Of a DNA stretch of 64,000 bases, positions 13,819-26,331 are shown in pieces. The notes below the pieces were generated by a model, which saw only the letters and a list, made by a program, of their open reading frames with translations, searched no databases and was not told where the DNA came from. The position numbers and the translations under genes are program-made. The DNA comes from an uncultured Hyphomicrobiales bacterium (GTDB taxonomy: Bacteria; Pseudomonadota; Alphaproteobacteria; Rhizobiales; Beijerinckiaceae): contig CAIUWR010000040.1 in NCBI GenBank assembly GCA_903902915.1, forward strand, positions 1-64,000. Reading direction: 5' to 3'. The first letter of the stretch is position 1; each line of letters starts with the position of its first letter.

Positions 13819-15045
13819 TCAGACCACGTCCTTGCGGGTGTCCGCATCGGCTGGCTTGTCGTACCATTTGGGGTCCATGCGGCAGGGGACGCCGTTTTCC
13901 CGCAGGGTCTGTTCATATTCGTTGCGGATGAACGGATCTTCCATCCAGTAGGGGATGGCGGTGCCGCCCTGATTCACGTCGATGGCGGTGTAATCGGTGT
14001 GCTTCTGGCCGGGGGCGCCGGGGTCGCGGCCGGGGTTGTGGGGGCCGAACCAGGCGCTCAGGCGGAAGTCTTCCTTGGAGACGCTGAAGTGCTGGTGATA
14101 CCAGCGCGCGCCGCCCGGCGCCGCCGTCACCAGCCCCACCGGCTCGTAGTCGAGGCGGTTGACCTGATCGGCCACGCCGTTCTCCCACGGCCGCTCGCCG
14201 CAATGCTCGGGCCATGAATAGGTGTAGCCCTTGCCCTTCAGGCAGATCAGAACCGCCGCCGAGGTATGGGCGTGGCCCTTGGAATAGCGGCCGTTCTCGT
14301 GCTGGCCGATCCAGTAATAGAAGCTGTTGTTCGTCATGAAGGGCTCGACGCGGCGATAGCCGACGGACCGGCGGTTATCGAGCGGCAGTTCGCAATTGAT
14401 GACGTCGGGGATGAAGTTGGTCTTGCGCATGGCCAGACCACGCACCGGATCGGGCTCGATGTCGTCCTTGGGCTTGAAGAAGTCATCGGCGCCGGAAAAG
14501 CGGTCTTCGAACACGAAGGGGTTCTCGAACACGGCCTTGGCGTTTTGCAGCGCGTTCAGCACGACGGGCGCGGTGGTGCCGCCCAGCAGCAGGGCGCCGC
14601 CGGAGGTCGCGTTGACGTGGCGGTGCATGGCGTTCATGGGGATCGAGAACATCGAGCCCTTCTGCCATTCGAAGACATGCTTCTTGGACTGGCCGTCGAT
14701 CCAGACTTCCGTCGAACCGCGCCCTTCCACCACGAGGAAGATCTCCTCATACATGTGCTTTTCGGGGTTCAGCGCGCCGCCGGGCGGAATCTCCACCACA
14801 TAGCAGCCCCACTTCGTTTCGGTGCCATAAAGCTGGATGAAATGGCCTTTGCCGCCGGTGCGCTTCCAGGGCATCAGGGGCAGATTCTGCACCTTGCTGA
14901 TGCCGATGCCGCGAAACACGGGAATGCCCTCGGACTCCATCCAGGCGTCATAGGGGGTGGGCTGTTTCTTGAATTCGCCGAAACCGGCCTTTTTGGCGCC
15001 GGCCGGCTCGTGCCAGTGAACGCCGTCTTTCCCGTCATGGGGCAT
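13819..15045 (-). CDS. Bicupin protein, metal site only in the C-terminal cupin
   Basis: 408 aa protein with two cupin barrels (about residues 80-160 and 245-335), the architecture of gentisate-type ring-cleaving dioxygenases. In the first barrel the HxH motif is degraded (NPEKHMYEE) though HRH is kept at 141-143. The second has GHAH (His258, His260) and YHQH (His317, His319), with Val in place of the usual glutamate. In gentisate dioxygenases the metal sits in the N-terminal barrel, so this is a distinct group. It is a paralogue of the bicupin at 18223 and lies divergent from the EutA-like gene. A metal-dependent oxygenase or isomerase function is plausible; the substrate is unknown. Confidence 0.8.
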   Translation of the reverse strand: MPHDGKDGVHWHEPAGAKKAGFGEFKKQPTPYDAWMESEGIPVFRGIGISKVQNLPLMPWKRTGGKGHFIQLYGTETKWGCYVVEIPPGGALNPEKHMYEEIFLVVEGRGSTEVWIDGQSKKHVFEWQKGSMFSIPMNAMHRHVNATSGGALLLGGTTAPVVLNALQNAKAVFENPFVFEDRFSGADDFFKPKDDIEPDPVRGLAMRKTNFIPDVINCELPLDNRRSVGYRRVEPFMTNNSFYYWIGQHENGRYSKGHAHTSAAVLICLKGKGYTYSWPEHCGERPWENGVADQVNRLDYEPVGLVTAAPGGARWYHQHFSVSKEDFRLSAWFGPHNPGRDPGAPGQKHTDYTAIDVNQGGTAIPYWMEDPFIRNEYEQTLRENGVPCRMDPKWYDKPADADTRKDVV

Positions 15046-15190: not shown

Positions 15191-16906
15191 ATGGCGAAGG
15201 AAGACGAGAAGAAGACCGCTGGCCACTCCATGGGCGAACATACAATGGGCCTCAGCTGGGCGCATGTGCATGCCGAAGACGCCGACCATGACCATGACGA
15301 ATTCGACTCCGACGTGCCGCTGGAAGAAAATCCGCTCTGGATCCAGGATAATGTGACGCTTGTGAGCGTCGGCATCGACATCGGCTCCTCCGGCACGCAG
15401 GTCATCTTCTCCAGGATCCACCTGCGCCGCCTCGCCGAAGAGCTGACCAGCCGCTTCTATGTGGTCGCCCGCGACACGCTGTTTCTCTCCCCGGTCTCCC
15501 TGACGCCCTATTCCAGCGAGACCCGCATCGACGACAAGGCCCTGCGCAAAATCGTCGAGGACGCCTATGAGGCGGCGGGGCTCGCCCCCGGCGACATCGA
15601 CGCTGGCGCGGTGATTCTCACCGGCGAGGCCCTGCGGCGCGAGAACGCCCAAAGCATTTCGGCCATGCTTTCGGAGGCGGGCGGCGATTTCGTCTGCGCC
15701 ACGGCGGGCCATCATATGGAGTCCATGCTCGCCGCCTATGGCTCGGGCGCGGCGCAGGCCTCGCTGGAGCTTGGCAAGCGCGTGCTGAACATCGACATTG
15801 GCGGCGGCACCACCAAGCTAGGCCTCGTGGACAAGGGCCAGTGCATCGCCACCGCCGCCTTCCATGTGGGCGGGCGCTTGCAGGTGGTGGACGAGCATTT
15901 CCGCATCACCCGCCTCGATCCCGCCGGCAAGCACCATGCGAAGCGCGCGGGCTTCGACTGGAATCTGGGCGATCAGGTGACGAGCGAGGATCTCGACAAG
16001 GTCGCCGACGTCATGGCCGAAACGCTGATCGTCGCCCTGACCCAGCGCCCCGCGCCCCATGATGTGGAGCATCTGTTCCTCACCGATCCCATCGCCGATT
16101 TCGGCGATATCGGCGGCGTCATGTTCTCGGGCGGCGTCGCCGAATATGTCTATGACCGCGAGCCGCGCGATTTCGGCGACATGGGCAAGCGGCTTGGTTC
16201 GGCCCTTGCGCGCAAGATCGCCGCCGGTCGCTTTCCCTGGCCCATGCTGCCCGCGCGCGAATGTATCCGCGCCACGGCGCTGGGCGCGTCGGAATATTCG
16301 GTGCAGCTCTCGGGCAACACGAGCTACATCTCAAATCCCGGCGCCTTGCTGCCGCGCCGCAACTTGCAGGTCATCCAGCCCGCCTTCGAATTTACCGAGG
16401 AGGTGGACGGGGAAGCGCTGGGCAAGGCGATCATCGCCCACCGCAAGGCTTTCGAGGTCGAGGGCGCAGAAATCGACATCGCGCTCGCCTTCCACTGGAA
16501 GGGCATGCCGTCCTATGACCGCATCTTCGCCACAGCGCAGGGCGTCGCCATCGGCCTCGCCGATCATATCGCGGCGCAAAAGCCCATCTATGTGATGCTG
16601 GATGGCGACATCGCGCAGACCCTGGGCGCGGTGCTGCGCGAGGATTGCAAGGTGATGAGCGAAATCCTCGTCATCGACGGCGTGATGCTGATGGACTTCG
16701 ACTATATCGACCTCGGCAAGGTGCGCATCCCCTCCTACACGGTGCCTGTGACGATCAAATCGCTGGTCTTCAGCGAGGATCCGCGCGGACTGCGCTCGAA
16801 GGAGCGCATCCACCACGTCGAGGCCGATCACGACCATCACCACCATGATCACGGCCACGGCCATCACCATCACCACCATCATCACGATCATGACGAAGGA
16901 AACTGA
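15191..16906 (+). CDS. EutA-like actin-fold ATPase with histidine-rich ends
   Basis: 571 aa protein related to EutA, the ATPase that reactivates B12-dependent ethanolamine ammonia-lyase. ATPase motifs are GIDIGSSGTQVIFSRI (phosphate 1, residues 61-76) and NIDIGGGTTKLGLVD (about 200-214); TGEALRRENAQ and CATAGHHMESMLAAYG are EutA-specific stretches. It differs by a His/Asp segment near residues 25-38 and a tail of about 25 residues that is mostly His and Asp, which should bind metal ions. No ethanolamine ammonia-lyase genes lie in the window; the neighbours are cupins, an ABC ATPase and a His-rich protein. A role in activating or metallating a neighbouring enzyme is inferred. Confidence 0.85.
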   Translation: MAKEDEKKTAGHSMGEHTMGLSWAHVHAEDADHDHDEFDSDVPLEENPLWIQDNVTLVSVGIDIGSSGTQVIFSRIHLRRLAEELTSRFYVVARDTLFLSPVSLTPYSSETRIDDKALRKIVEDAYEAAGLAPGDIDAGAVILTGEALRRENAQSISAMLSEAGGDFVCATAGHHMESMLAAYGSGAAQASLELGKRVLNIDIGGGTTKLGLVDKGQCIATAAFHVGGRLQVVDEHFRITRLDPAGKHHAKRAGFDWNLGDQVTSEDLDKVADVMAETLIVALTQRPAPHDVEHLFLTDPIADFGDIGGVMFSGGVAEYVYDREPRDFGDMGKRLGSALARKIAAGRFPWPMLPARECIRATALGASEYSVQLSGNTSYISNPGALLPRRNLQVIQPAFEFTEEVDGEALGKAIIAHRKAFEVEGAEIDIALAFHWKGMPSYDRIFATAQGVAIGLADHIAAQKPIYVMLDGDIAQTLGAVLREDCKVMSEILVIDGVMLMDFDYIDLGKVRIPSYTVPVTIKSLVFSEDPRGLRSKERIHHVEADHDHHHHDHGHGHHHHHHHHDHDEGN

Positions 16907-17021: not shown

Positions 17022-18158
17022 GTGCTGAGCGTCCGGTCACTGAACACCGAATACAAGACCCAGAAGGGCCCCTCCGTGAGGGCGGCGCAGGATGTCTGCT
17101 TCGAAGTGCCCAAGGGCATGTTCTTCACCTTGCTCGGCCCGTCGGGCTGCGGCAAGACGACGACGCTGCGCTCCATCGCGGGGCTTGAGCGCCCGACCTC
17201 CGGGGAGATCGAGGTGAATGGACGGATGGTCTATTCCTCAGCCCAGGGTCTGTTCGTGCCGCCCAACAAGCGCAATTTCGGCATGGTGTTCCAGTCCTAC
17301 GCCATCTGGCCGCATATGACCGTCTTCGCCAATGCGGCCTTCCCGCTGGAAGTGCGTCCCAACAAGTCGTCCAAAGCGCAGATCGCCGACAAGGTGATGA
17401 AAGTGCTGCATGCGGTGGGCCTCGACCATCTGGCGGAGCGCGACGCCACCAAGCTCTCCGGCGGCCAGCAGCAGCGCCTGGCGCTCGCCCGGGCGCTCGT
17501 CATGGAGCCCGAGCTTCTGTTGCTCGACGAGCCGCTGTCGAACCTCGACGCCAAACTGCGCGACCGCATGCGCGTCGAGCTGAAGCGCATTCAACGCGAG
17601 CTTGGCCTCACCACGATTTATGTGACCCATGATCAGGGCGAGGCGCTCGCGCTCTCCCACGAGATCGCGGTCATGAGCGAGGGGCGAATCGTGCAGATCG
17701 GTTCGCCCCGCACCATTTACGAGCGCCCACGCAATCGATTCGTGGCCGATTTCATCGGCTCGACGAATTTCGTCGATGGCGATGTGCTCGGCAAGGATGA
17801 AGTCACCGGCCTCGTGCGTGTGCGCACCCGGCTTGGCGACCTTCTGGCGACGTCGGAAGCCGAGCTTTTCGCGGGTTCTGCGGTCACTTTGTCCATCCGT
17901 CCCGAGGACGTGGAGCTTTCCGAGGATGCGCCGCCTGCGGGCCGTTTGCTGAACACTTGCGCGGGCGTCATGGATCTGCGCGTTTTTCTCGGAGATTTCG
18001 TAGACTTCCAAGTCAAAGTGGGCGATTACATGCTGCAATCGCGTGGGCATCCGTCATTGCGCACCCCGGTGGGCGCCATGATCAATGTCCGCATGGATCC
18101 GCACAAGTGCGTGGCGCTGCCCGCTGAAGCCTCAAGCGCGGCGTCGGCCGCCGCCTGA
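17022..18158 (+). CDS. ABC transporter ATP-binding protein (CysA/PotA/UgpC type), no permease nearby
   Basis: 378 aa ATPase with Walker A GPSGCGKTT (residues 39-47), Q-loop VFQSYAIWPHMTVFANAAFP, signature [15 protein letters not shown], Walker B LLLLDEPLSNLDAKLRDRM, switch His in VTHDQGEAL, and a C-terminal TOBE-type regulatory domain (about 245-365). These features mark importers of polyamines, sugars, ferric iron or similar. No permease or exported binding protein is encoded in the window, so partners must be elsewhere or the protein is not a transporter part. GTG start with GGGAGG 5 bases upstream. It sits between the EutA-like gene and the bicupin, same strand. Confidence 0.88.
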   Translation: MLSVRSLNTEYKTQKGPSVRAAQDVCFEVPKGMFFTLLGPSGCGKTTTLRSIAGLERPTSGEIEVNGRMVYSSAQGLFVPPNKRNFGMVFQSYAIWPHMTVFANAAFPLEVRPNKSSKAQIADKVMKVLHAVGLDHLAERDATKLSGGQQQRLALARALVMEPELLLLDEPLSNLDAKLRDRMRVELKRIQRELGLTTIYVTHDQGEALALSHEIAVMSEGRIVQIGSPRTIYERPRNRFVADFIGSTNFVDGDVLGKDEVTGLVRVRTRLGDLLATSEAELFAGSAVTLSIRPEDVELSEDAPPAGRLLNTCAGVMDLRVFLGDFVDFQVKVGDYMLQSRGHPSLRTPVGAMINVRMDPHKCVALPAEASSAASAAA

Positions 18159-18222
18159 GCGCTCATTCATCGCCGCTTGTCGGCATCTATTGACGACCCT
18201 CGAACCGAAGAAGGAGAGCTTT

Positions 18223-19341
18223 ATGGCCAAGAACGCAATCGTCTCCGACGATCTTGCCAAGAAATTCGCGACCGAGAAGGACACGCCCTATCTGCGCTGG
18301 GTGCGCGATGAAGGCCTGGACATCATCAGCGCCCATTACATCCGCAACCTGCGCACGGTCGAGCTGAAGCCCTGGGCGCGTCGCGGCGGCAAGGGCGTCT
18401 ACATCAACCACGAAGCCTCCCGCACCTCGAACGATTGCTATGTGTGCGAAATCGCGCCGGGCAAGAAGCTTGAGCCGCTGCGCCAGCTCTTCGAGGAGAT
18501 GATCCTCGTGCTCGACGGTCGCGGTTCCACCACCGTGTGGAACGACGCCGGTCAACGCATCACCTTCGAATGGAAGGCTGGCGCGCTTTTCGCCATTCCG
18601 CTGAACTGCTGGCACCAGCATTTCAACGGCTCGGGCAGCGAGCCCGCCCGTTTCGTGTCGGTGACCAACGCGCCCCCGATCATCAACCTCTATGAAGACA
18701 TCGACTTCGTCTTCAACACCCCGCACGACTTCAAGGAGCGCTTCAACGGCGAGCCTGATTATTTCGCCAACAAGGGCGAGCAGGAGGGCTTCAAGCTCAC
18801 CACCAACTTCGTGCCGGATGCGCCGAACATTCCGCTCATCACCGCCAAGGAGCGCGGCGCGGGCGGTGGCCACATTCGCTTCAACATGGCGAAGGGCTCG
18901 ATGAACAGCCACATTTCGCAGTTCCCCATCGGCACCTACAAGAAGGGCCACGCCCATGGTCCCGGCGCCCATGTGATCATCCTCGGCGGCCAGGGCTATT
19001 CGCTCATGTGGGCTGAGGGCGACGAGCCCAAGCGCTACGATTGGGAAATCGGCACCATGATCGTGCCGCCGAACATGTGGAACCACCAGCACTTCAACAC
19101 CGGCACGACGCCGTCGCGCTACCTCGCGTTCAAGCACGAGGTCGTCTCGATCCGCAACGCGCAGGGTGTGCCGAAGGCCTGGATCTCCAAGCGCATCGGC
19201 GGCGACCAGATTGATTACGCCGACGAAATGCCGCTCGTGCGCAACATGTTCAAGGACGAGCTGTCCAAGGTCGGCCTTGAGCCGCGCATGGACGAGGCCT
19301 ACAAGACCGAGCTGGAAACCCTGCCGCCGAAAGTGGCTTGA
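18223..19341 (+). CDS. Bicupin protein with C-terminal four-histidine motif
   Basis: 372 aa, two cupin barrels (about 65-150 and 225-305). The first barrel has lost the HxH pair (LEPLRQLFEE) but keeps HQH at 131-133. The second has GHAHGPGAH: His243, His245, and His250 where cupins usually have Glu, plus NHQH (His288, His290). It is a paralogue of the 13819 gene (shared GRGSTxVW, NFVPD and C-terminal segments). The start is set at MAKNAIVSDD, preceded by AAGGAG; the longer frame runs into the ABC gene. It is probably a metal-dependent dioxygenase-like enzyme; the substrate is unknown. Confidence 0.8.
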   Translation: MAKNAIVSDDLAKKFATEKDTPYLRWVRDEGLDIISAHYIRNLRTVELKPWARRGGKGVYINHEASRTSNDCYVCEIAPGKKLEPLRQLFEEMILVLDGRGSTTVWNDAGQRITFEWKAGALFAIPLNCWHQHFNGSGSEPARFVSVTNAPPIINLYEDIDFVFNTPHDFKERFNGEPDYFANKGEQEGFKLTTNFVPDAPNIPLITAKERGAGGGHIRFNMAKGSMNSHISQFPIGTYKKGHAHGPGAHVIILGGQGYSLMWAEGDEPKRYDWEIGTMIVPPNMWNHQHFNTGTTPSRYLAFKHEVVSIRNAQGVPKAWISKRIGGDQIDYADEMPLVRNMFKDELSKVGLEPRMDEAYKTELETLPPKVA

Positions 19342-19437: not shown

Positions 19438-20016
19438 TTGGCTGAACAGGAGCACGCGGGCGCCGGCCACAACAGCGCCGCCCAACGCGAGGAAGTCGTC
19501 TGGGAGCGCTGGACGAAAAAGCGCACCTTCGTGCGCGCCCTCGAAGGCACCTATGGCGAATTGGTGCGCGAACTTTTCAATCAGCCGCGCGTCTATCCGA
19601 CGAGCGACCACAAGTGGAAGGGCGGGCCCGGCCACTATGGCAAGAAGATCATCAATCCCCAGTCCGTGAAGGTGGCTCAGTCCATCGAGACCCATATCGA
19701 GGTCTTTTCTCCGGGCGGTTATGGCCAGAAGCATGGCCACATGAACAGCGCGGTCTTCTTCGTGCTCAAGGGCACGGGCCATGACGTGCATGACGAACGC
19801 CGTTACGACTGGGAGGCGGGCGACGCCCTCATCGTCGAGAACGCTTGCGTGCATCAGCATTTCTCGGACGACCATGACGACGAGTGCATCACCCTGGTGA
19901 TGAAGGCGAAGCCGCTCTTCCTGTTCATGCATCTGCTGTTCCAGAAGGTGGCTGAATTCCCGCCCAAGGATGGCACCGCCAAGCAGCTTGCCTATTCGCC
20001 ACCGGCCGATCTCTGA
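19438..20016 (+). CDS. Single-domain cupin protein
   Basis: 192 aa protein with one cupin barrel in its second half. The metal motif is HGH (His99, His101) without the usual glutamate (Val106), with VHQH (His139, His141) as second motif, so a three- or four-His metal site is possible. The N-terminal 80 residues (VWERWTKKRTFVRAL, GPGHYGKKIINPQ) are not recognised. Translation starts at TTG with GGAGAAG just upstream; no better start is available. It is followed after 9 bases by another cupin gene, so the two are surely cotranscribed and may form a heteromer. Confidence 0.75.
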   Translation: MAEQEHAGAGHNSAAQREEVVWERWTKKRTFVRALEGTYGELVRELFNQPRVYPTSDHKWKGGPGHYGKKIINPQSVKVAQSIETHIEVFSPGGYGQKHGHMNSAVFFVLKGTGHDVHDERRYDWEAGDALIVENACVHQHFSDDHDDECITLVMKAKPLFLFMHLLFQKVAEFPPKDGTAKQLAYSPPADL

Positions 20017-20025
20017 GGTGCAACC

Positions 20026-20580
20026 ATGAGCTTTCTAGATCCGCGCGAACGTGAACGCGCCCAGACCCACACGCTGACCGCCAACTTCTACGACGCCGCC
20101 CTCGAAGCCTCGAAGACCTTTCGCAAGGGCTACGCCGAGCAGGTGAACATCGTGAAGGCCGCTGATATGCCCTTCGAGCGGTCTCGCCATGGGCTGATCA
20201 AGCACATCATCAACGAGCAGATGAACACGAAGGAATATTGCCTCGACATCTACATGCAGTTCCTGCCCGTCGGCAAAGCCTCGGGCAAGCATCGGCATCT
20301 GTCGGAGGAGGTGTTCTATGTCGTCGAAGGTTCGGGCTACGACCTGCATTGGGACGTGCGTTTCGACTGCAAGGACGTGATGGAGTTCGAATGGGACGCC
20401 GAGCCCCGCAAATTCGAATGGAAGGCGGGCGACTTCGTCTATATTCCGCCCTACGTCGCCCATCAGCATTTCAACGCCGATCCCGCCAATGAGACGCGGA
20501 TCATCGTGGTCAACAGCCGCATCGTGAAGGCCATGGGCTTCGACTGGTTCGAACAGATCGAAGACGCGCAGGGTTACTGA
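20026..20580 (+). CDS. Single-domain cupin protein with canonical metal motif
   Basis: 184 aa protein. The cupin has the complete motif KHRHLSEEVFYVVEG (His89, His91, Glu95) and the second-motif histidines in VAHQHF (His146, His148), so it should bind a divalent metal. The N-terminal half is helical (YDAALEASKTFRKGYAEQV) and has no clear match. It lies 9 bases after the preceding cupin gene. Because the two differ in the glutamate position, they may be a catalytic and a non-catalytic partner. Function unknown. Confidence 0.78.
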   Translation: MSFLDPRERERAQTHTLTANFYDAALEASKTFRKGYAEQVNIVKAADMPFERSRHGLIKHIINEQMNTKEYCLDIYMQFLPVGKASGKHRHLSEEVFYVVEGSGYDLHWDVRFDCKDVMEFEWDAEPRKFEWKAGDFVYIPPYVAHQHFNADPANETRIIVVNSRIVKAMGFDWFEQIEDAQGY

Positions 20581-20632: not shown

Positions 20633-21076
20633 ATGTGCGGCGAATTGGAAGACGACGGCCCGGCCGCCCTTGAGGATCATCTCTATACGGCGTTCCTCGC
20701 CCATGCGCGCGCGCTGCTGGCCGAACAGGCCCGTAACGCGGGTCAGGATCAGGACACCGCCGCCGCCTATGCGGACAAACTTTTCGGCGACGCCTTGATG
20801 CGCGCACGCAGCGATTGCGAAGCGCGCGATCCAGAACTGCGCTATCAGACGCTGGCGGTGCAGCCGCTGGTTTTCGCCAGGCTCGCGGGCTTCCTCGCCT
20901 CGCATCTGTCGCTGGGCGAAGATCCGTTGCGCCGGGTGATGGAAGCCATGATGCACGGCTATGCGGAAGCCGAACATCTGGAGCCCGAGCACGGGCACGA
21001 TCATGACGACGAAGACGAGCATGATCATGATCATGCGCATGGCCATTCACATGGCGGCGGGCATCATCATCATTAG
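20633..21076 (+). CDS. Small protein with histidine-rich C-terminus
   Basis: 147 aa. Residues 1-115 look like an all-helical acidic domain (LEDHLYTAFLAHARALLAEQ, PLRRVMEAMMHGYAEAEHLE) with no family I recognise. The last 30 residues are His/Asp/Glu rich (HGHDHDDEDEHDHDHAHGHS, ending HHHH), which is typical of nickel, cobalt or zinc storage and chaperone tails. AAGGAGA precedes the ATG. It is the last gene of the cupin transcript and resembles the tail of the EutA-like protein, suggesting shared metal handling. Function not established. Confidence 0.72.
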   Translation: MCGELEDDGPAALEDHLYTAFLAHARALLAEQARNAGQDQDTAAAYADKLFGDALMRARSDCEARDPELRYQTLAVQPLVFARLAGFLASHLSLGEDPLRRVMEAMMHGYAEAEHLEPEHGHDHDDEDEHDHDHAHGHSHGGGHHHH

Positions 21077-21140: not shown

Positions 21141-22127
21141 CTATATCTTGAACGCCTCGTGCGTCTCCGGCGCGAACAGCTCTTCGGGCTTGAGCAGGCG
21201 CTTCGAGAGGCCGCATTCGAAGTGGTACTTGAGGAAGGTCGAGAGCACCTTCTCATTGTCCTGCAGACCATAGGCCCAATAGTTCGCGCCCATTTCCTTG
21301 ATGGTCTGGTCCACTTCCCAATTCAGGAAGGGCAGCATGGCCTTCAGCACGGCGGTCTCGCGCAGGTCGGCGTAGGTCTTCTTCTGCGATTCCACGAAGG
21401 CCTTGTAGAGCGACTGGGCGACCCAGCGGTTCTGCTCGTATACGTCGCGGCGGATGGCGATCGTATGCATGATCGGGAAAATGCCGGTCTTGCGGAAATA
21501 ATCCCGCTCCACATCGCCATAATTCTCGAACAGGCGCACCACGTTCTTGCCGTCATAGGTCGAGGGCGCGCGGGCGGTGTGCAGAGCGTCGATCTCGCCG
21601 TCGCGCAGCATCTGCGAGAGGGTCTTGTCGTCGGGAATCGCGTGCACCTTGATGTTGGCGGGCAGGTCCAGCGCCAGCTTCTCGGGACGGCCGGGCTCTT
21701 CCTCGCCGCCGGTGTAATAGGTGACGCTATCGACAGGCACGCCGTAATGTTCGGAAAGCGTGCCGCGAATCCACACGGGCGCGGTCATCTGGAATTCCGG
21801 CACGCCGACCTTCTTGCCGATGAGATCCTTGGGCGTGCGAATGCCGGACTTGGCGTTCACATAGATGCAGGAATGGCGGAAGAAGCGCGAGGGGAAGATC
21901 GGGATCGCCACGAAGCGGCGCGGCTCGCGAAACAGCGAGACCGTGTAGGACGAGAGCGACATTTCCGCGACGTCGAATTCCTGATGGCGCAGCATGCGGA
22001 AGAAGGTCTCTTCCACCGGCAGGTCATGGTAATTGATGTCGATGCCGTCGGGCTGGACGGAGCCGTCCTGAATGGAGCGCGTGCGGTCATAGTTCCAGCA
22101 GGCGAGCGACAGATTGAGTTTCGACAT
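21141..22127 (-). CDS. 4,5-dihydroxyphthalate decarboxylase-like protein (periplasmic-binding-protein fold, no signal peptide)
   Basis: 328 aa protein with the NMT1/periplasmic-binding-protein fold. It resembles Pht5-type 4,5-dihydroxyphthalate decarboxylases (PVEETFFRMLRHQEFDVAEM, GIRTPKDLIGKKVGVPEFQM, GEIDALHTARAP, FPIMHTIAIRRDVYE). The N-terminus MSKLNLSLACWNYDRTRS is not a signal peptide, which fits a cytoplasmic enzyme better than a transport binding protein. It ends a four-gene minus-strand operon (Rieske ferredoxin, CobW GTPase, IclR, this gene) opposite a phthalate-dioxygenase-type oxygenase. Decarboxylation of a dihydroxy-aromatic acid is a reasonable guess; a solute-binding role cannot be excluded. 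Confidence 0.75.
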   Translation of the reverse strand: MSKLNLSLACWNYDRTRSIQDGSVQPDGIDINYHDLPVEETFFRMLRHQEFDVAEMSLSSYTVSLFREPRRFVAIPIFPSRFFRHSCIYVNAKSGIRTPKDLIGKKVGVPEFQMTAPVWIRGTLSEHYGVPVDSVTYYTGGEEEPGRPEKLALDLPANIKVHAIPDDKTLSQMLRDGEIDALHTARAPSTYDGKNVVRLFENYGDVERDYFRKTGIFPIMHTIAIRRDVYEQNRWVAQSLYKAFVESQKKTYADLRETAVLKAMLPFLNWEVDQTIKEMGANYWAYGLQDNEKVLSTFLKYHFECGLSKRLLKPEELFAPETHEAFKI

Positions 22128-22169: not shown

Positions 22170-22994
22170 TCAGTAAGCAGCCCGGGCTTTATACCCGAGC
22201 CGGATGGAAATGACATTGGCGGTCTCGACCACCAAAGGCGCATAGCGCGCCAGCGTCTCATCGGACAATCGTTGCAGCGGCCCCGCCATGCCCACTGCGC
22301 CCACGACCAACCCGCTGGAGTCGCGGATGGGCGCGGCGATGGAGCGCATGCCCAGTTCGCTTTGCTCATCCTCGCGCGCATATCCAAGCTGGCGCACCTC
22401 TTCCAGCGCGGCCCGCAGCGCGTCGGGCTGCGTTTGCGTCTTGGGGGTGCGCGGGCGGAAACGTTCGCGCAGCATCGGCTCGACAAGTTCGGGCGGCTGA
22501 AAGGCGAGGATCGCGCGGCCCTCCGCCGTGCAGAGCGCAGGCTTGCGCGCGCCCAGATTGGCGCGCATGCGGATCGCCTGGGTGCTCTCGAGATCATAGA
22601 CATACATGATCTCGGAACCGTCGAGCACGGCCAGATGCACCGTCTCGTTGGTGGCTTCGCGCAGGTCGAAAATATAGGGGCGGCCTTCGGTGGACAGGTC
22701 CATGCGCTGGCGCACCAAAGCGCCAAGGGCGAAGAGCGCAATGCCGAGCCGGTATTTCTCGGTCTCGGGATTTTGCTCCAGCATGCCTTCGGCCACCAGC
22801 GTCGAGGCCAGCCGATAGACCGTGCTCTTGGCGACGCCAAGGCGGCGCGCCAGGCTGGTGACGCCGATCTCGGCTTCCCCTTCGGAGAACATCTTCAGCA
22901 GCCGCACGGCGGTCGTCACCGACGAGAGCCGGGAGCCGCGCTCCTGCGGGGCCGCGCCGTCGGCGCTCGCTTTTGATTCGCCCTGCGTCGCCAT
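22170..22994 (-). CDS. IclR-family transcriptional regulator
   Basis: 274 aa. A winged helix-turn-helix (about 30-85: EIGVTSLARRLGVAKSTVYR) is followed by the IclR effector-binding domain (LHLAVLDGSEIMYVYDLEST-like segment, IRDSSGLVVGAVGMAGP). IclR proteins often control aromatic catabolism and respond to pathway metabolites. Its start overlaps the CobW stop (TGATG). The palindrome at 24329 in the operon promoter is the likely target. Confidence 0.93.
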   Translation of the reverse strand: MATQGESKASADGAAPQERGSRLSSVTTAVRLLKMFSEGEAEIGVTSLARRLGVAKSTVYRLASTLVAEGMLEQNPETEKYRLGIALFALGALVRQRMDLSTEGRPYIFDLREATNETVHLAVLDGSEIMYVYDLESTQAIRMRANLGARKPALCTAEGRAILAFQPPELVEPMLRERFRPRTPKTQTQPDALRAALEEVRQLGYAREDEQSELGMRSIAAPIRDSSGLVVGAVGMAGPLQRLSDETLARYAPLVVETANVISIRLGYKARAAY

Positions 22995-23944
22995 CAGGCG
23001 CTCCCCCGCAGGGTTGCGGCTATGTCGGCGGCGGGCTTCAGATGGGCGATGATGGTCACGCCAGAGCGCTCGGGCGGGCGCGCGCCGGGTGGGGCGGGGG
23101 TGATGTCGAGGGCGTCGGGGGTGGCCTGCACCAGCATCCAGCCGCCGCTGGAGAGCAGCACCAGCCCCTTGAGCCGCAGCAGCGCGTCGGGGGCGCTGGC
23201 CAGCGCGGCTTCCACGGCCCGCCGCAACGCCGCAGCGTCGAGTCCTTCGAGCGGGGCGAAGGCGGTGGTCAGGCCCTGCGTGTGATGGGCGTGGCTGTGA
23301 TCATGTCCGCAGGAGACCTGCTTGCGGCCTTCCAGCGCATCAAGAAGCGTCGCGGCGGACAGGTTCGCGTTGGCGGAGGCGAGCAGGATGGCGCCGGGCC
23401 GCAGGCAGTCCAGACAGGCCTGCGCCTCGGCCAGCGCCTCAGGGGAGGCGGCGTCGATCCGGGTCAGCACGATGGCGTCCGCATGGTCGATCTGGCTGCG
23501 GCATTCGGGATGGCTGGTGACCTGCCACGGCCCAAGGCGCGCGTCGAAGGTGGAGACCAGCCCGCGCAGCTCATAGCGCTCGCCCACAACGCCTTGCGAC
23601 AGCCGCGCCAGGATGGGGGCGGGATCGGCGACGCCGGTGGTCTCGATCAGCACCCAGGAGAAGGGCGGAATGCGCTTGTGCAGACGGTCGAAGAACAGGC
23701 GCTCCAGCGTGGCGGACAGATCTTCGCCCGCGGAGCAGCAGGCGCAGCCATTGTCGAGCAGCAACGGCGCGTCGGACGAGGTCTCGACGAGCCGATCGTC
23801 GAGGCCCACTTCGCCCAGTTCATTGACGATGACCATGGCGCCCGCAAAGGCCTCCTCGCGCAACCAGCGCGCAAGAAGGGTCGTCTTTCCGCTGCCCAGA
23901 AAGCCGGTCAGTAGCAGGATGGGGACGCGCAGGCGCGGAGCCAT
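22994..23944 (-). CDS. CobW-type G3E GTPase, putative metallochaperone
   Basis: 316 aa member of the COG0523 GTPases that deliver Zn, Co, Fe or other metals to enzymes. GTPase motifs: GFLGSGKTT (14-22), ETTG (101-104), TRID (161-164). The metal motif CACC is at 67-70, and a short His cluster (GHDHSHAHH, about 213-221) lies between the GTPase and C-terminal domains. It is cotranscribed with the Rieske ferredoxin and IclR genes, so it probably serves a metalloenzyme of this cluster rather than cobalamin synthesis. The metal cannot be told from sequence. Confidence 0.9.
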   Translation of the reverse strand: MAPRLRVPILLLTGFLGSGKTTLLARWLREEAFAGAMVIVNELGEVGLDDRLVETSSDAPLLLDNGCACCSAGEDLSATLERLFFDRLHKRIPPFSWVLIETTGVADPAPILARLSQGVVGERYELRGLVSTFDARLGPWQVTSHPECRSQIDHADAIVLTRIDAASPEALAEAQACLDCLRPGAILLASANANLSAATLLDALEGRKQVSCGHDHSHAHHTQGLTTAFAPLEGLDAAALRRAVEAALASAPDALLRLKGLVLLSSGGWMLVQATPDALDITPAPPGARPPERSGVTIIAHLKPAADIAATLRGSA

Positions 23945-24449: not shown

Positions 24450-25736
24450 ATGCTCAAGAAAGAACAGAACGACTACGTCACACAGACCGGCCCTGGCACG
24501 CCCATGGGCAATCTGTTCCGCTGCTACTGGATCCCCGCCCTGCTCGCCGAAGAGCTGCCGGAGAACGATTGCCCGCCGGTGCGCGTGAAGCTGCTCTCCG
24601 AGCGCCTGCTCGCCGTGCGCGACAGCGAGGGCCGTCTGGGGCTCATCGACGAGTTCTGCGCCCATCGCGGCGTGTCGCTCTGGTTCGGCCGCAATGAAGA
24701 GTGCGGCATTCGCTGCCCCTATCACGGCTGGAAGTTCGATGTGACCGGCCAGTGCGTGGAAGTGCCCTCCGAGCCCGCCGAGTCCGGCTACGCCAACAAG
24801 ATCAAGCTGAAGTCCTATCCGCTCATCGAAAAGGGCGGCGTGCTCTGGACCTATATGGGCGACCCCGCGCAGCAGCCTCCCGAGCCCGAGTTCGAATTCT
24901 GCTCCGTGCCCTTGAACCAGACCTTCACCACCAAGCGCTTGCAGGAGAACAATTGGCTGCAAGGCATGGAAGGCGGCATCGATTCGTCGCATGTGTCGTG
25001 GCTGCATCGCGGCGATCTGTCCAACGATCCGCTGTTCAAGGGCTCGGCAGGCAACAAGTACAACATGTCGGATCTGTCCCCGGTGTTCGAAGTCGTCGAG
25101 AACGACGGCGGCCTGCTGATCGGCGCGCGCCGCAACGCCGAGGACGATCAGTATTACTGGCGCATCACCCCCTGGGTCATGCCCACCTATACGGGCGTTC
25201 CCCCGCGCGGCGATCACCCGATCCACGGCCATTTCTGGATCCCGATCGACGATCACAATTGCTGGGCCTGGAGCTATGACTACCACCCCACCCGTCCGTT
25301 GACGGACGCCGAGGTGTCGGCCATGCGCGACGGCAAGGGCATCCATGTGAAATATGTGCCCGGCACCTATATTCCGCTCGCCAACAAGACCAACGACTAC
25401 CTGATGAACCGCGAGGCCCAGAAGGCCGGACGCACCTTCAGCGGCGTCGAGGGCATCGGCATGCAGGACGCGTCCTTGCAGGAGAGCATGGGCCCGATCT
25501 GCGACCGCACGAAGGAAAACCTCGTCGGCACCGACAACGGCGTCATCATGGCCCGCCATCGTCTGATGCGCGCCGCCAAGGCGCTGGCCGAGAAGGGCAC
25601 GATCCCGCCGGGCGTGAATCCTGAGCACCACAAGGTGCGTCAGGCGGCGCTGCTGCTCAAGCGCGACGTGAACTTCAAGGACGGCGCGAAGGAAGCGCTG
25701 ATCGCCAAGAAGGGCGTGCGCCAGACCTCGGTCTGA
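24450..25736 (+). CDS. Rieske non-haem iron oxygenase, phthalate 4,5-dioxygenase type
   Basis: 428 aa oxygenase alpha subunit. Rieske ligands are Cys70-x-His72 (CAHRGVSLWFG) and Cys89-x2-His92 (CPYHGWKFD). The mononuclear iron site is GGIDSSHVSWLHRGD (His181, His186), with a carboxylate later in the chain. The sequence resembles phthalate 4,5-dioxygenase and related alpha-only (homomultimeric) oxygenases that attack aromatic acids or demethylate methoxy-aromatics. The ATG follows AGAGGAGATGAGGTC. The ferredoxin gene is divergent; a small unknown gene follows. The substrate is unproven; the Pht5-like gene in the opposite operon points to a carboxylated aromatic. Confidence 0.9.
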   Translation: MLKKEQNDYVTQTGPGTPMGNLFRCYWIPALLAEELPENDCPPVRVKLLSERLLAVRDSEGRLGLIDEFCAHRGVSLWFGRNEECGIRCPYHGWKFDVTGQCVEVPSEPAESGYANKIKLKSYPLIEKGGVLWTYMGDPAQQPPEPEFEFCSVPLNQTFTTKRLQENNWLQGMEGGIDSSHVSWLHRGDLSNDPLFKGSAGNKYNMSDLSPVFEVVENDGGLLIGARRNAEDDQYYWRITPWVMPTYTGVPPRGDHPIHGHFWIPIDDHNCWAWSYDYHPTRPLTDAEVSAMRDGKGIHVKYVPGTYIPLANKTNDYLMNREAQKAGRTFSGVEGIGMQDASLQESMGPICDRTKENLVGTDNGVIMARHRLMRAAKALAEKGTIPPGVNPEHHKVRQAALLLKRDVNFKDGAKEALIAKKGVRQTSV

Positions 25737-25812
25737 GCGAACATGCGGCTGCGGGCGATCCCCGCAGCCGCTTCTCGATCAAATGTGGTTCGGCCCCTTT
25801 GGGAGACTGACG

Positions 25813-26331
25813 ATGCTGAGTGAATCCGCCCGCATGTCGAGCGCGCAGGAAGCGGCCTATCGCATCCAGTATCCAAACTCGAAGCAGCGCGCCGCCAAGA
25901 TCATCGCGCTCGACAAGACCAGCGCCCGCATCGTCGATGAAGTCTCGCGGCTGCCCTGGCATGGCGCAGCCTTTTTCGCCTCGCTCTCCTTCGCCCCCAA
26001 GGGTTCGCCCGGCGATGGCAAGGACGAAAGCCTTCAGGCGTGGCTGAGCGATCTGGCGGGCCGCACCATGGAGCTGGTGGCGGAGGTCGAGGCTTCGGAT
26101 TTCGTGGTGGTGTTGACGGCGGCAGGCGAAGATGCGCGCGCCATCTCCATCATCGCCGACGCCTGCAAGCTGCACAACAAGAGCCTCGTCGGCCTCGTGG
26201 TGCCGCGCGAGGGCGCGAGCGACGATGCGGTGAACGCCTCGCTCAATTATCTGCGGCCCTTCACGCGCATGCTCGTGGTGGCCAATGGCGTGGATTACGT
26301 GGAAGCGATGTTGCGGGCGCTGCGGGCTTAG
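25813..26331 (+). CDS. Hypothetical protein with Rossmann-like segment
   Basis: 172 aa from ATG 25813 (GGGAG upstream); Met at 25834 is an alternative. I do not recognise a family. The middle part (SDFVVVLTAAGEDARAISII, then ACKLHNKSLVGLVVP) reads as alternating beta strand and helix, like a nucleotide- or cofactor-binding alpha/beta protein. There is no signal peptide, cysteine pair or membrane segment. It follows the Rieske oxygenase by 76 bases on the same strand and may be an accessory to it. Confidence 0.7.
   Translation: MLSESARMSSAQEAAYRIQYPNSKQRAAKIIALDKTSARIVDEVSRLPWHGAAFFASLSFAPKGSPGDGKDESLQAWLSDLAGRTMELVAEVEASDFVVVLTAAGEDARAISIIADACKLHNKSLVGLVVPREGASDDAVNASLNYLRPFTRMLVVANGVDYVEAMLRALRA

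Follow-up and report, generated by a model that had tools for sequence, protein, structure and literature searches.

We analysed a stretch of 64,000 nucleotides (hereafter the window) of contig CAIUWR010000040.1 from an uncultured Hyphomicrobiales bacterium, which carries at 15191-16906 (+) a gene of the EutA family, the family of the reactivating factor of ethanolamine ammonia-lyase. This EutA-like gene belongs to the family over its full length and its ATPase motifs are intact; its homologues co-occur with two-domain cupins (bicupins), adjoin them and pair with them clade by clade, and a minority of the loci also show linkage to a nickel/cobalt permease. On balance, we are inclined to read the product as an ASKHA ATPase of the EutA family which has changed its client and serves the adjacent cupin, typically a bicupin, as an ATP-driven activase or reactivase. 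In such a switch a bicupin with the fold of salicylate and gentisate 1,2-dioxygenases would replace ethanolamine ammonia-lyase: the ATPase would bind an empty or inactivated cupin and, through the binding and hydrolysis of ATP, open or remodel it; a trapped product, or a metal that is spent or wrong, could then leave, and the correct divalent metal would enter. In the clade of the window's gene (clade E0), ends rich in histidine and aspartate would keep metal near the client. The physical contact between the two proteins, the ATPase cycle, the identity of the metal and the direction of its transfer are the parts of this scheme which we infer.

The gene encodes 571 amino acids from an ATG start, with no internal stop. 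Its product matches the Pfam profile of EutA, PF06277, nearly from end to end (residues 56-527, profile positions 2-474 of 475, E 2.9e-117, 392.9 bits for a cut-off of 27), and is hence a full-length member of that family. The residues of the DxG, NxDIGGGT and SGGV stretches, which we take to be the phosphate and adenosine motifs, are kept in at least 95% of the 146 EutA-like copies that we pooled and in at least 7 of 8 reference EutA encoded beside eutB, and they place the protein among the ASKHA ATPases. In the AlphaFold2 model, residues 41-524 (the core, about residues 56-528 in our feature list) mostly exceed a predicted local distance difference test (pLDDT) score of 70, and the model is of low confidence at residues 1-40 and 525-571, which are the histidine-rich ends. 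Pfam finds in the protein no P-loop domain of the CobW, HypB or UreG type, so that it is not a G3E GTPase. The NCBIfam cut-off for EutA equivalogs is missed (best score 328 bits vs 598); the three paralogues of the same genome and the copies of loci L143 and L134 fail as well, while EutA of E. coli and of Listeria pass, and the test is not fully specific, since the eutB-adjacent copy L174 also fails it. The tree puts the 146 EutA-like copies in a clade of their own, which excludes the eight EutB-adjacent references (support 0.87); they do not group with eutB-linked EutA. As the protein misses the NCBIfam cut-offs, falls outside the eutB-linked clade and comes from a genome without EutB, we do not file it as an EutA equivalog despite its PF06277 membership; it would resemble EutA in its working at most by analogy. 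None of the solved structures matched E. coli EutA at E 0.01, and the comparison of folds therefore stays at the ASKHA level.

The initial annotation, made from the window alone, had described an EutA-like gene without ethanolamine ammonia-lyase, and the genome as a whole (3.68 Mb, 99.9% complete) bears this out. No match to EutB was found in it by a search which detected the E. coli EutB control, and its only EutC gene is truncated at the N-terminus (profile positions 67-235 of 235) and lies on a contig other than the window's. This truncated eutC (L010:9330-9920 (-), on contig C22) stands near a frame whose translation we read as a phage-type integrase (L010:10852-12393) and, there being no eutB in the genome, it appears to be what is left of an ethanolamine ammonia-lyase that has been lost. 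What the window alone could not reveal is that full-length EutA is encoded four times in the genome, by paralogues on the window's contig (C40) and on C77, C45 and C1. Three of the four adjoin cupins: besides the window's gene, the C45 copy has a bicupin at 17 bp, and the C1 copy has a single cupin at 57 bp with a second cupin behind it; for the C77 copy, no cupin was found on its 12.9-kb contig. The possibility that the gene is the only EutA of a hidden eutBC, which the initial annotation, together with want of cupin linkage in other genomes, had named as what would speak against its proposal, is ruled out by the four paralogues, by the absence of EutB and by the truncation of EutC. The same annotation had called for a search for other B12 enzymes, which was not entirely empty: methylmalonyl-CoA mutase genes are present; they lie on C95, and the four EutA genes on other contigs. 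A search for diol dehydratase (PF02286) gave no match, its control being equally silent.

Cupin genes surround the EutA-like gene in the window, as had been noticed; there are four of them, at 13819-15045 (-), 18085-19341 (+), 19438-20016 (+) and 20026-20580 (+), and the association recurs in other genomes. Among 385 alphaproteobacterial genomes, EutA was found in 11 (E <=1e-25), the bicupin in 12 (E <=1e-60) and both in 11, the two scans being taken to cover the same genomes from their equal numbers and handles; the twelfth bicupin genome, G520, which gave no EutA match, is 70% complete. With our own genome excluded, Fisher's exact test yields 6e-19 for this co-occurrence; the genomes are linked by descent and hence not independent samples. 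A survey of the order covered 297 genomes, of which seven besides our own have a full-length EutA, and six of the seven have bicupins; the seventh, G238, has EutB at 26 bp from EutA and no bicupin. Altogether EutB was detected in 3 of the 18 EutA-bearing genomes (G238, G058 and G183). The survey of EutA homologues for linked cupins, another proposal of the initial annotation, turned out in its favour: a bicupin lies within 600 bp of the EutA-like gene in 31 of 37 copies (the count omits the copies of our own genome, the one of G238 which adjoins eutB, and G267:C254, a fragment of 101 positions), and four more copies stand beside a single cupin. These four (L140, L143, L152 and L154) belong to one kind of run, in which a UbiD-like decarboxylase, EutA, a nickel/cobalt permease of the NicO type and a single cupin of 124-131 amino acids follow each other, NicO being missing in L140. 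The run represents the module in a second form, which does without a bicupin. For the other two copies, L153 and L145 (the latter on a contig of 4.7 kb), no neighbouring cupin was recognised.

In the pooled set, a bicupin is found within 500 bp of 81 of the 146 EutA-like copies. Adjacency is not assessable for copies on short contigs. Among the 83 copies flanked by 5 kb or more in both directions, the bicupin is at most 500 bp away in 48 and at most 5 kb away in 62. Two pairs of loci are duplicate DNA (L050/L149 and L062/L155), and the counts rerun without them (144 distinct copies) become 46 of 81 and 60 of 81. The relatives set consists of the best 80 loci of at least 521 relatives and is biased to clade E0; L001-L006 and L092-L131 were excluded from the pooled analysis, most of these stretches having been re-fetched with longer flanks. 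The eight reference EutA all have EutB adjacent (seven within 42 bp, one at 745 bp), and none of them has a bicupin in the stretches examined. Bicupins outnumber EutA copies in several genomes (15 vs 2 in G408), and our own genome has further bicupins at L188-L190 (stretches of about 18-20 kb) without a recognised EutA; their greater number suits a helper better than a fixed subunit. We also observed that the 15 bicupin matches of G408 (about 2.4 Mb) and the 12 of G674 (about 3.0 Mb) represent a large uncharacterised expansion of the bicupin family. Of four single-cupin sequences searched with the bicupin profile, one matches its N-terminal half and three its C-terminal half, a weak hint in the sequences that single cupins might be split halves of bicupins.

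The pairing is specific to clades. Two types of bicupin are represented in the window: cupA (13819-15045 (-), Cupin_2) and cupB (18085-19341 (+), or 18223-19341 in our feature list, Cupin_2). The bicupins found on the same strand as EutA in clade E0 belong to the cupB clade, and cupB is likely the cognate client of the window's EutA-like protein. In relatives cupA is the same-strand partner of the paralogue EutA2, which a cupA-type bicupin adjoins at gaps of 30-129 bp in L015, L017, L022, L025, L026, L032 and L040; in our own genome it lies apart from EutA2. The 58 distinct same-strand pairs divide into E0 with cupB types (22), E1 with cupA types (19), E3 with B7 (5), E5 with B9 (4) and E2, E6 or E9 with others (8), and the sole bicupin clade common to two EutA clades is B3 (E2 and E6). 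Clade E0 has a support of 0.90; the clade of the cupB types, which also takes in four single lineages, comprises 60 sequences (0.75), and the cupA types group with B7 at 0.88 and with B9 at 1.0. A mirror-tree comparison of the 58 pairs gives r 0.874, the best of 2000 shuffles reaching 0.128; it gives 0.74 within E0 alone (best shuffle 0.35) and 0.90 within E1 alone (best shuffle 0.75). Earlier tests had given 0.43 for all 80 pairs, 0.88 for 60 same-strand pairs and 0.75 for the 20 opposite-strand pairs alone. The informative part of this result is the agreement between paralogues. That the nearest bicupin is always the partner is ruled out by the E0-B0 neighbours, 13 pairs which are divergent and without exception lie on opposite strands; since such neighbours abut two operons, we judged the pairing on same-strand pairs.

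The model of cupB has a pLDDT of 85.7. When its fold matches were given a second look, the top ones, with Z from 21.4 to 21.0, were salicylate and gentisate 1,2-dioxygenases (rmsd 3.4-4.8 over 260-271 residues, 12-16% identity; 2phd and 3bu7, both with Z 21, are among them), with MncA and oxalate decarboxylases at Z 19.5 or less; the first order given by Foldseek ranks both of the latter above gentisate dioxygenase. The NCBIfam cut-offs for gentisate and 5-aminosalicylate dioxygenases are missed (bicupins score at most 31 bits, vs 442 and 650). In the C-terminal domain of 121 aligned bicupins, H289 and H291 are present in 117 each and H334 and H336 in all 121, and the N-terminal cupin site is more variable; the partner has a bicupin fold with a metal site of three histidines (H289, H291 and H334). 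A fourth histidine (296) is found in 22 of 24 same-strand partners of E0, with Tyr in the other 2; all 19 partners of E1 have Val or Ile at this position.

The initial annotation had also drawn attention to the histidine-rich ends, and these are real: the N-terminus contains HSMGEHTMGLSWAHVHAEDADHDHDEF (a His/Asp-rich stretch with a DHDHD motif, 15191-15325 (+), of low confidence in the model), and the C-terminus finishes in HHVEADHDHHHHDHGHGHHHHHHHHDHDEGN (a poly-His tail, 16772-16903 (+), likewise modelled with low confidence). Both lie outside the PF06277 core and attain up to 15 His per 20 residues, when 50 other genes of the window, picked by a codon-bias rule, reach at most 5; a frame missed by that rule (20633-21076) reaches 10. 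Of the 81 members of clade E0 that could be scored, 78 have the N-terminal motif DH[DE]HD, which also occurs in two copies outside the clade (one of E6, one of E9) and in none of 7 scorable eutB-linked EutA. At least 5 His occur at the C-terminus of 87 of 92 members of clade E0 and of no copy of the other clades. We considered whether the ends are the essence of the mechanism, and this is ruled out: since they are missing from most other clades which pair with bicupins, they cannot be its core.

NicO permeases carry nickel or cobalt. One is found in 19 of 124 EutA-like loci, every time within 3.2 kb of the EutA-like gene, although up to 10 kb was examined, and the gap is at most 19 bp in five loci (L051, L134, L143, L152 and L154); one of the 19 loci has NikR in addition. 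The profile used was built from the NicO genes of these loci, so that other NicO types can escape it, and Pfam confirmed the identity for two representatives (PF03824, "high-affinity nickel-transport protein"). Scaled from our own genome (three genes in 3.68 Mb, two of them read from split matches), the 2.03 Mb scanned should contain about 1.7 NicO genes; the loci are related to each other. The gene orders involving NicO differ between a betaproteobacterial set, L134, L143/L152/L154, L165 and L162/L166/L167; in the annotation of Phyllobacterium zundukense, a cupin, EutA, a HoxN/HupN/NixA transporter and NikR are consecutive. Rfam returned no family at the gathering score in the window and in seven NicO-bearing loci, hence no cobalamin riboswitch there, and Pfam found no B12-binding domain among the cluster genes scanned.

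Within the window, the EutA-like gene is followed by an ABC transporter ATPase (17022-18158 (+), ABC_tran and TOBE_2); such ATPases, all of one cluster, stand in 52 related loci. No permease frame lies between the two, and the same holds in L015; in L014, L059, L070 and L073 a permease frame of 581 amino acids precedes the ABC ATPase. The transporter of the window may have lost its own permease or may use one encoded elsewhere. After cupB come single-domain cupins 1 (19438-20016 (+)) and 2 (20026-20580 (+)), both matching Cupin_2, and an orphan of 147 amino acids with a His-rich C-terminus (20633-21076 (+)), which matches neither Pfam nor NCBIfam and whose family occurs in 9 related loci. On the other strand lie a gene for a periplasmic-binding-protein-like product (21141-22127 (-)), with a weak NMT1 match at E 0.0033, under its cut-off, and a family in 35 related loci, which we take to resemble 4,5-dihydroxyphthalate decarboxylase; an IclR-type regulator (22170-22994 (-), IclR_C and HTH_IclR); and a CobW/COG0523-type GTPase with a short His cluster (22994-23944 (-), cobW and CobW_C). 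They are followed by the large subunit of a Rieske-type oxygenase (24450-25736 (+)), with partial matches to several Rieske oxygenase models, none above cut-off, and by an orphan of 182 amino acids (25783-26331 (+)) without a Pfam match, which resembles a family found in 10 related loci; in L166, a member of this family directly precedes the NicO permease (L166:13174 and 13714).

The system can be set beside several known ones. With EutA it shares full-length homology and conserved ATPase motifs (30-33% identity to E. coli, Klebsiella, Listeria, Clostridioides and haloarchaeal records among the matches listed), but it differs from it by its separate clade, its scores under the NCBIfam cut-offs, a genome without EutB, the linkage to cupins and, in its own clade, the His-rich ends. 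A paper on the Eut system of Clostridium difficile also mentions a cupin; the cupin of classical eut operons is EutQ. In passages of a review on ethanolamine use (PMC5821096), EutA removes the damaged cobalamin cofactor and appears solely as helper to a single B12 enzyme. The G3E metallochaperones (UreG, HypB, COG0523/CobW) are likewise NTPases with a His-rich stretch and, in some loci here, nickel/cobalt permeases stand near, but the EutA-like protein has the EutA/ASKHA fold and not a P-loop, and its clients would be cupins; a search by term in a review of NTPase metallochaperones turned up neither EutA nor ASKHA (PMC9164220). BadF-type activators (component A of 2-hydroxyacyl-CoA dehydratases) are ASKHA ATPases which activate an enzyme (Z about 14), but among 38 aligned EutA-like proteins no Cys is invariant which could hold an Fe-S cluster, and the protein scores under the cut-off of the Pfam BadF model. 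On the side of the client, the bicupin is similar to salicylate and gentisate 1,2-dioxygenases in its second-look fold and as a bicupin with a His metal site, and unlike them in its low identity (given above), in the conserved HxH site of its C-terminal cupin and in its EutA-like partner. The nickel quercetinase QueD, likened here by description, is a cupin dioxygenase for which, according to its abstract, nickel is the likely physiological metal and a Glu-to-His (4-His) variant retains residual activity with nickel or cobalt; unlike our system, no ATPase helper is named in that abstract (PMC4416304). No report of a pairing between EutA and a cupin oxygenase appears in the open literature by titles and abstract openings, a body of text which leaves subscription journals largely uncovered.

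Several results weigh against an ATPase serving cupins, or against its metal-loading form. Clade E1 has a support of only 0.17, the cupA and cupB groups were named only after the trees had been inspected, and shared descent of linked genes contributes to agreement in mirror trees. The genomes G058 and G183 have one and two full-length EutA respectively, all bicupin-linked, and yet EutB elsewhere (the loci concerned are L126, L127, L168 and L171); the EutA-like protein may serve both enzymes there, or EutB may manage without EutA. In addition to L153 and L145, no cupin was recognised near L045, L054, L065, L067, L076 and L084, where the EutA-like genes have a His-rich C-terminus. The His-rich ends are almost wholly limited to E0, and E1, E3 and E5 pair with bicupins without them. 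All 8 partners of E2, E6 and E9 have the fourth histidine as well, and these EutA clades have no C-terminal tail, so that the histidine does not simply track the tails; B9 bicupins (the partners of E5) have Tyr and Pro for H289 and H291 in 4 of 4. Cupin sites with three histidines are typical of iron as well. Finally, by the profile used, 105 of the 124 loci have no NicO, and the NicO genes of our own genome are not near EutA.

The initial annotation had proposed a new type of activase or metal insertase. The proposal is strengthened in part: a service to cupins is supported by the co-occurrence and by the linkage in other genomes, and the evidence for a metal insertase is indirect (NicO in the 19 loci, the ends of E0, the CobW GTPase). 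Metal insertion is the bolder version of the activase reading, the protein possibly being a nickel or cobalt insertase. That it belongs to an undescribed maturation system, in which an ASKHA ATPase loads or reloads nickel or cobalt into cupin dioxygenases of aerobic catabolism, with a permease of its own in some lineages and His-rich donors in one clade, we hold as a tentative idea, less likely than not to be right. If it is true, we know of no ASKHA metal insertase before this one, and these cupins would join the nickel or cobalt enzymes.

The main alternative, to which we give a minor share of our belief, is a catalytic role for the EutA-like protein as one subunit of an enzyme, in which an ASKHA kinase or hydrolase would spend ATP on the substrate and the cupin would perform the coupled step. 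ATP-using subunits of this sort are known from hydantoinase/oxoprolinase and acetone carboxylase, the ASKHA fold includes kinases, and the pairing of genes and of clades would suit a two-subunit enzyme equally well; but bicupins outnumber EutA and occur without it at L188-L190, and the cupin partner varies between bicupin and single cupin. The two readings which keep the protein close to metals or to B12 are less probable. It would be improbable, although not negligibly so, that the service to cobalamin has been retained: the protein would reactivate, or handle B12 for, ethanolamine ammonia-lyase or some other cobalamin enzyme, with cobalt supplied by NicO and CobW. The transport of nickel and cobalt by NicO, the mutase genes of our own genome and the two genomes, G058 and G183, which have EutB and no full-length EutA free of bicupin linkage are on its side, as is the release of damaged cobalamin by EutA (PMC5821096); against it are the scanned cluster genes without a B12-binding domain, the window and seven NicO loci without a cobalamin riboswitch, and a genome without EutB whose mutase contig C95 carries no EutA gene.

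We judge slightly less probable still a metal buffer or sensor, which would only bind nucleotide and whose His-rich ends would store nickel, cobalt or zinc for the catabolic cluster. The ends themselves, the His-rich orphan and CobW-type GTPase of the same cluster and the NicO linkage are what one would expect of it, but most other clades pair with bicupins without any such ends, and the residues of the catalytic motifs are conserved. Very improbable, in our opinion, is a passenger gene, EutA-like protein and bicupin travelling together in aromatic-catabolism clusters without interacting: these clusters do share transporters, Rieske oxygenases, aldolases and regulators too, but EutA and cupin stay together while the other genes differ, and their pairing is specific to paralogues.

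If the activase reading is right, this side branch of EutA, found mostly in genomes without EutB (EutB in 3 of 18) and paired with cupins, would mean that ATP-driven reactivation also reaches metal enzymes of aromatic catabolism which do not use cobalamin. The annotations "ethanolamine ammonia-lyase reactivating factor" beside cupins, for instance in Phyllobacterium, would then be explained. Attempts to express these cupins in another host might fail if the ATPase is missing, and the pairing would offer a route to the metal, nickel or cobalt or else iron, of an uncharacterised cupin family.

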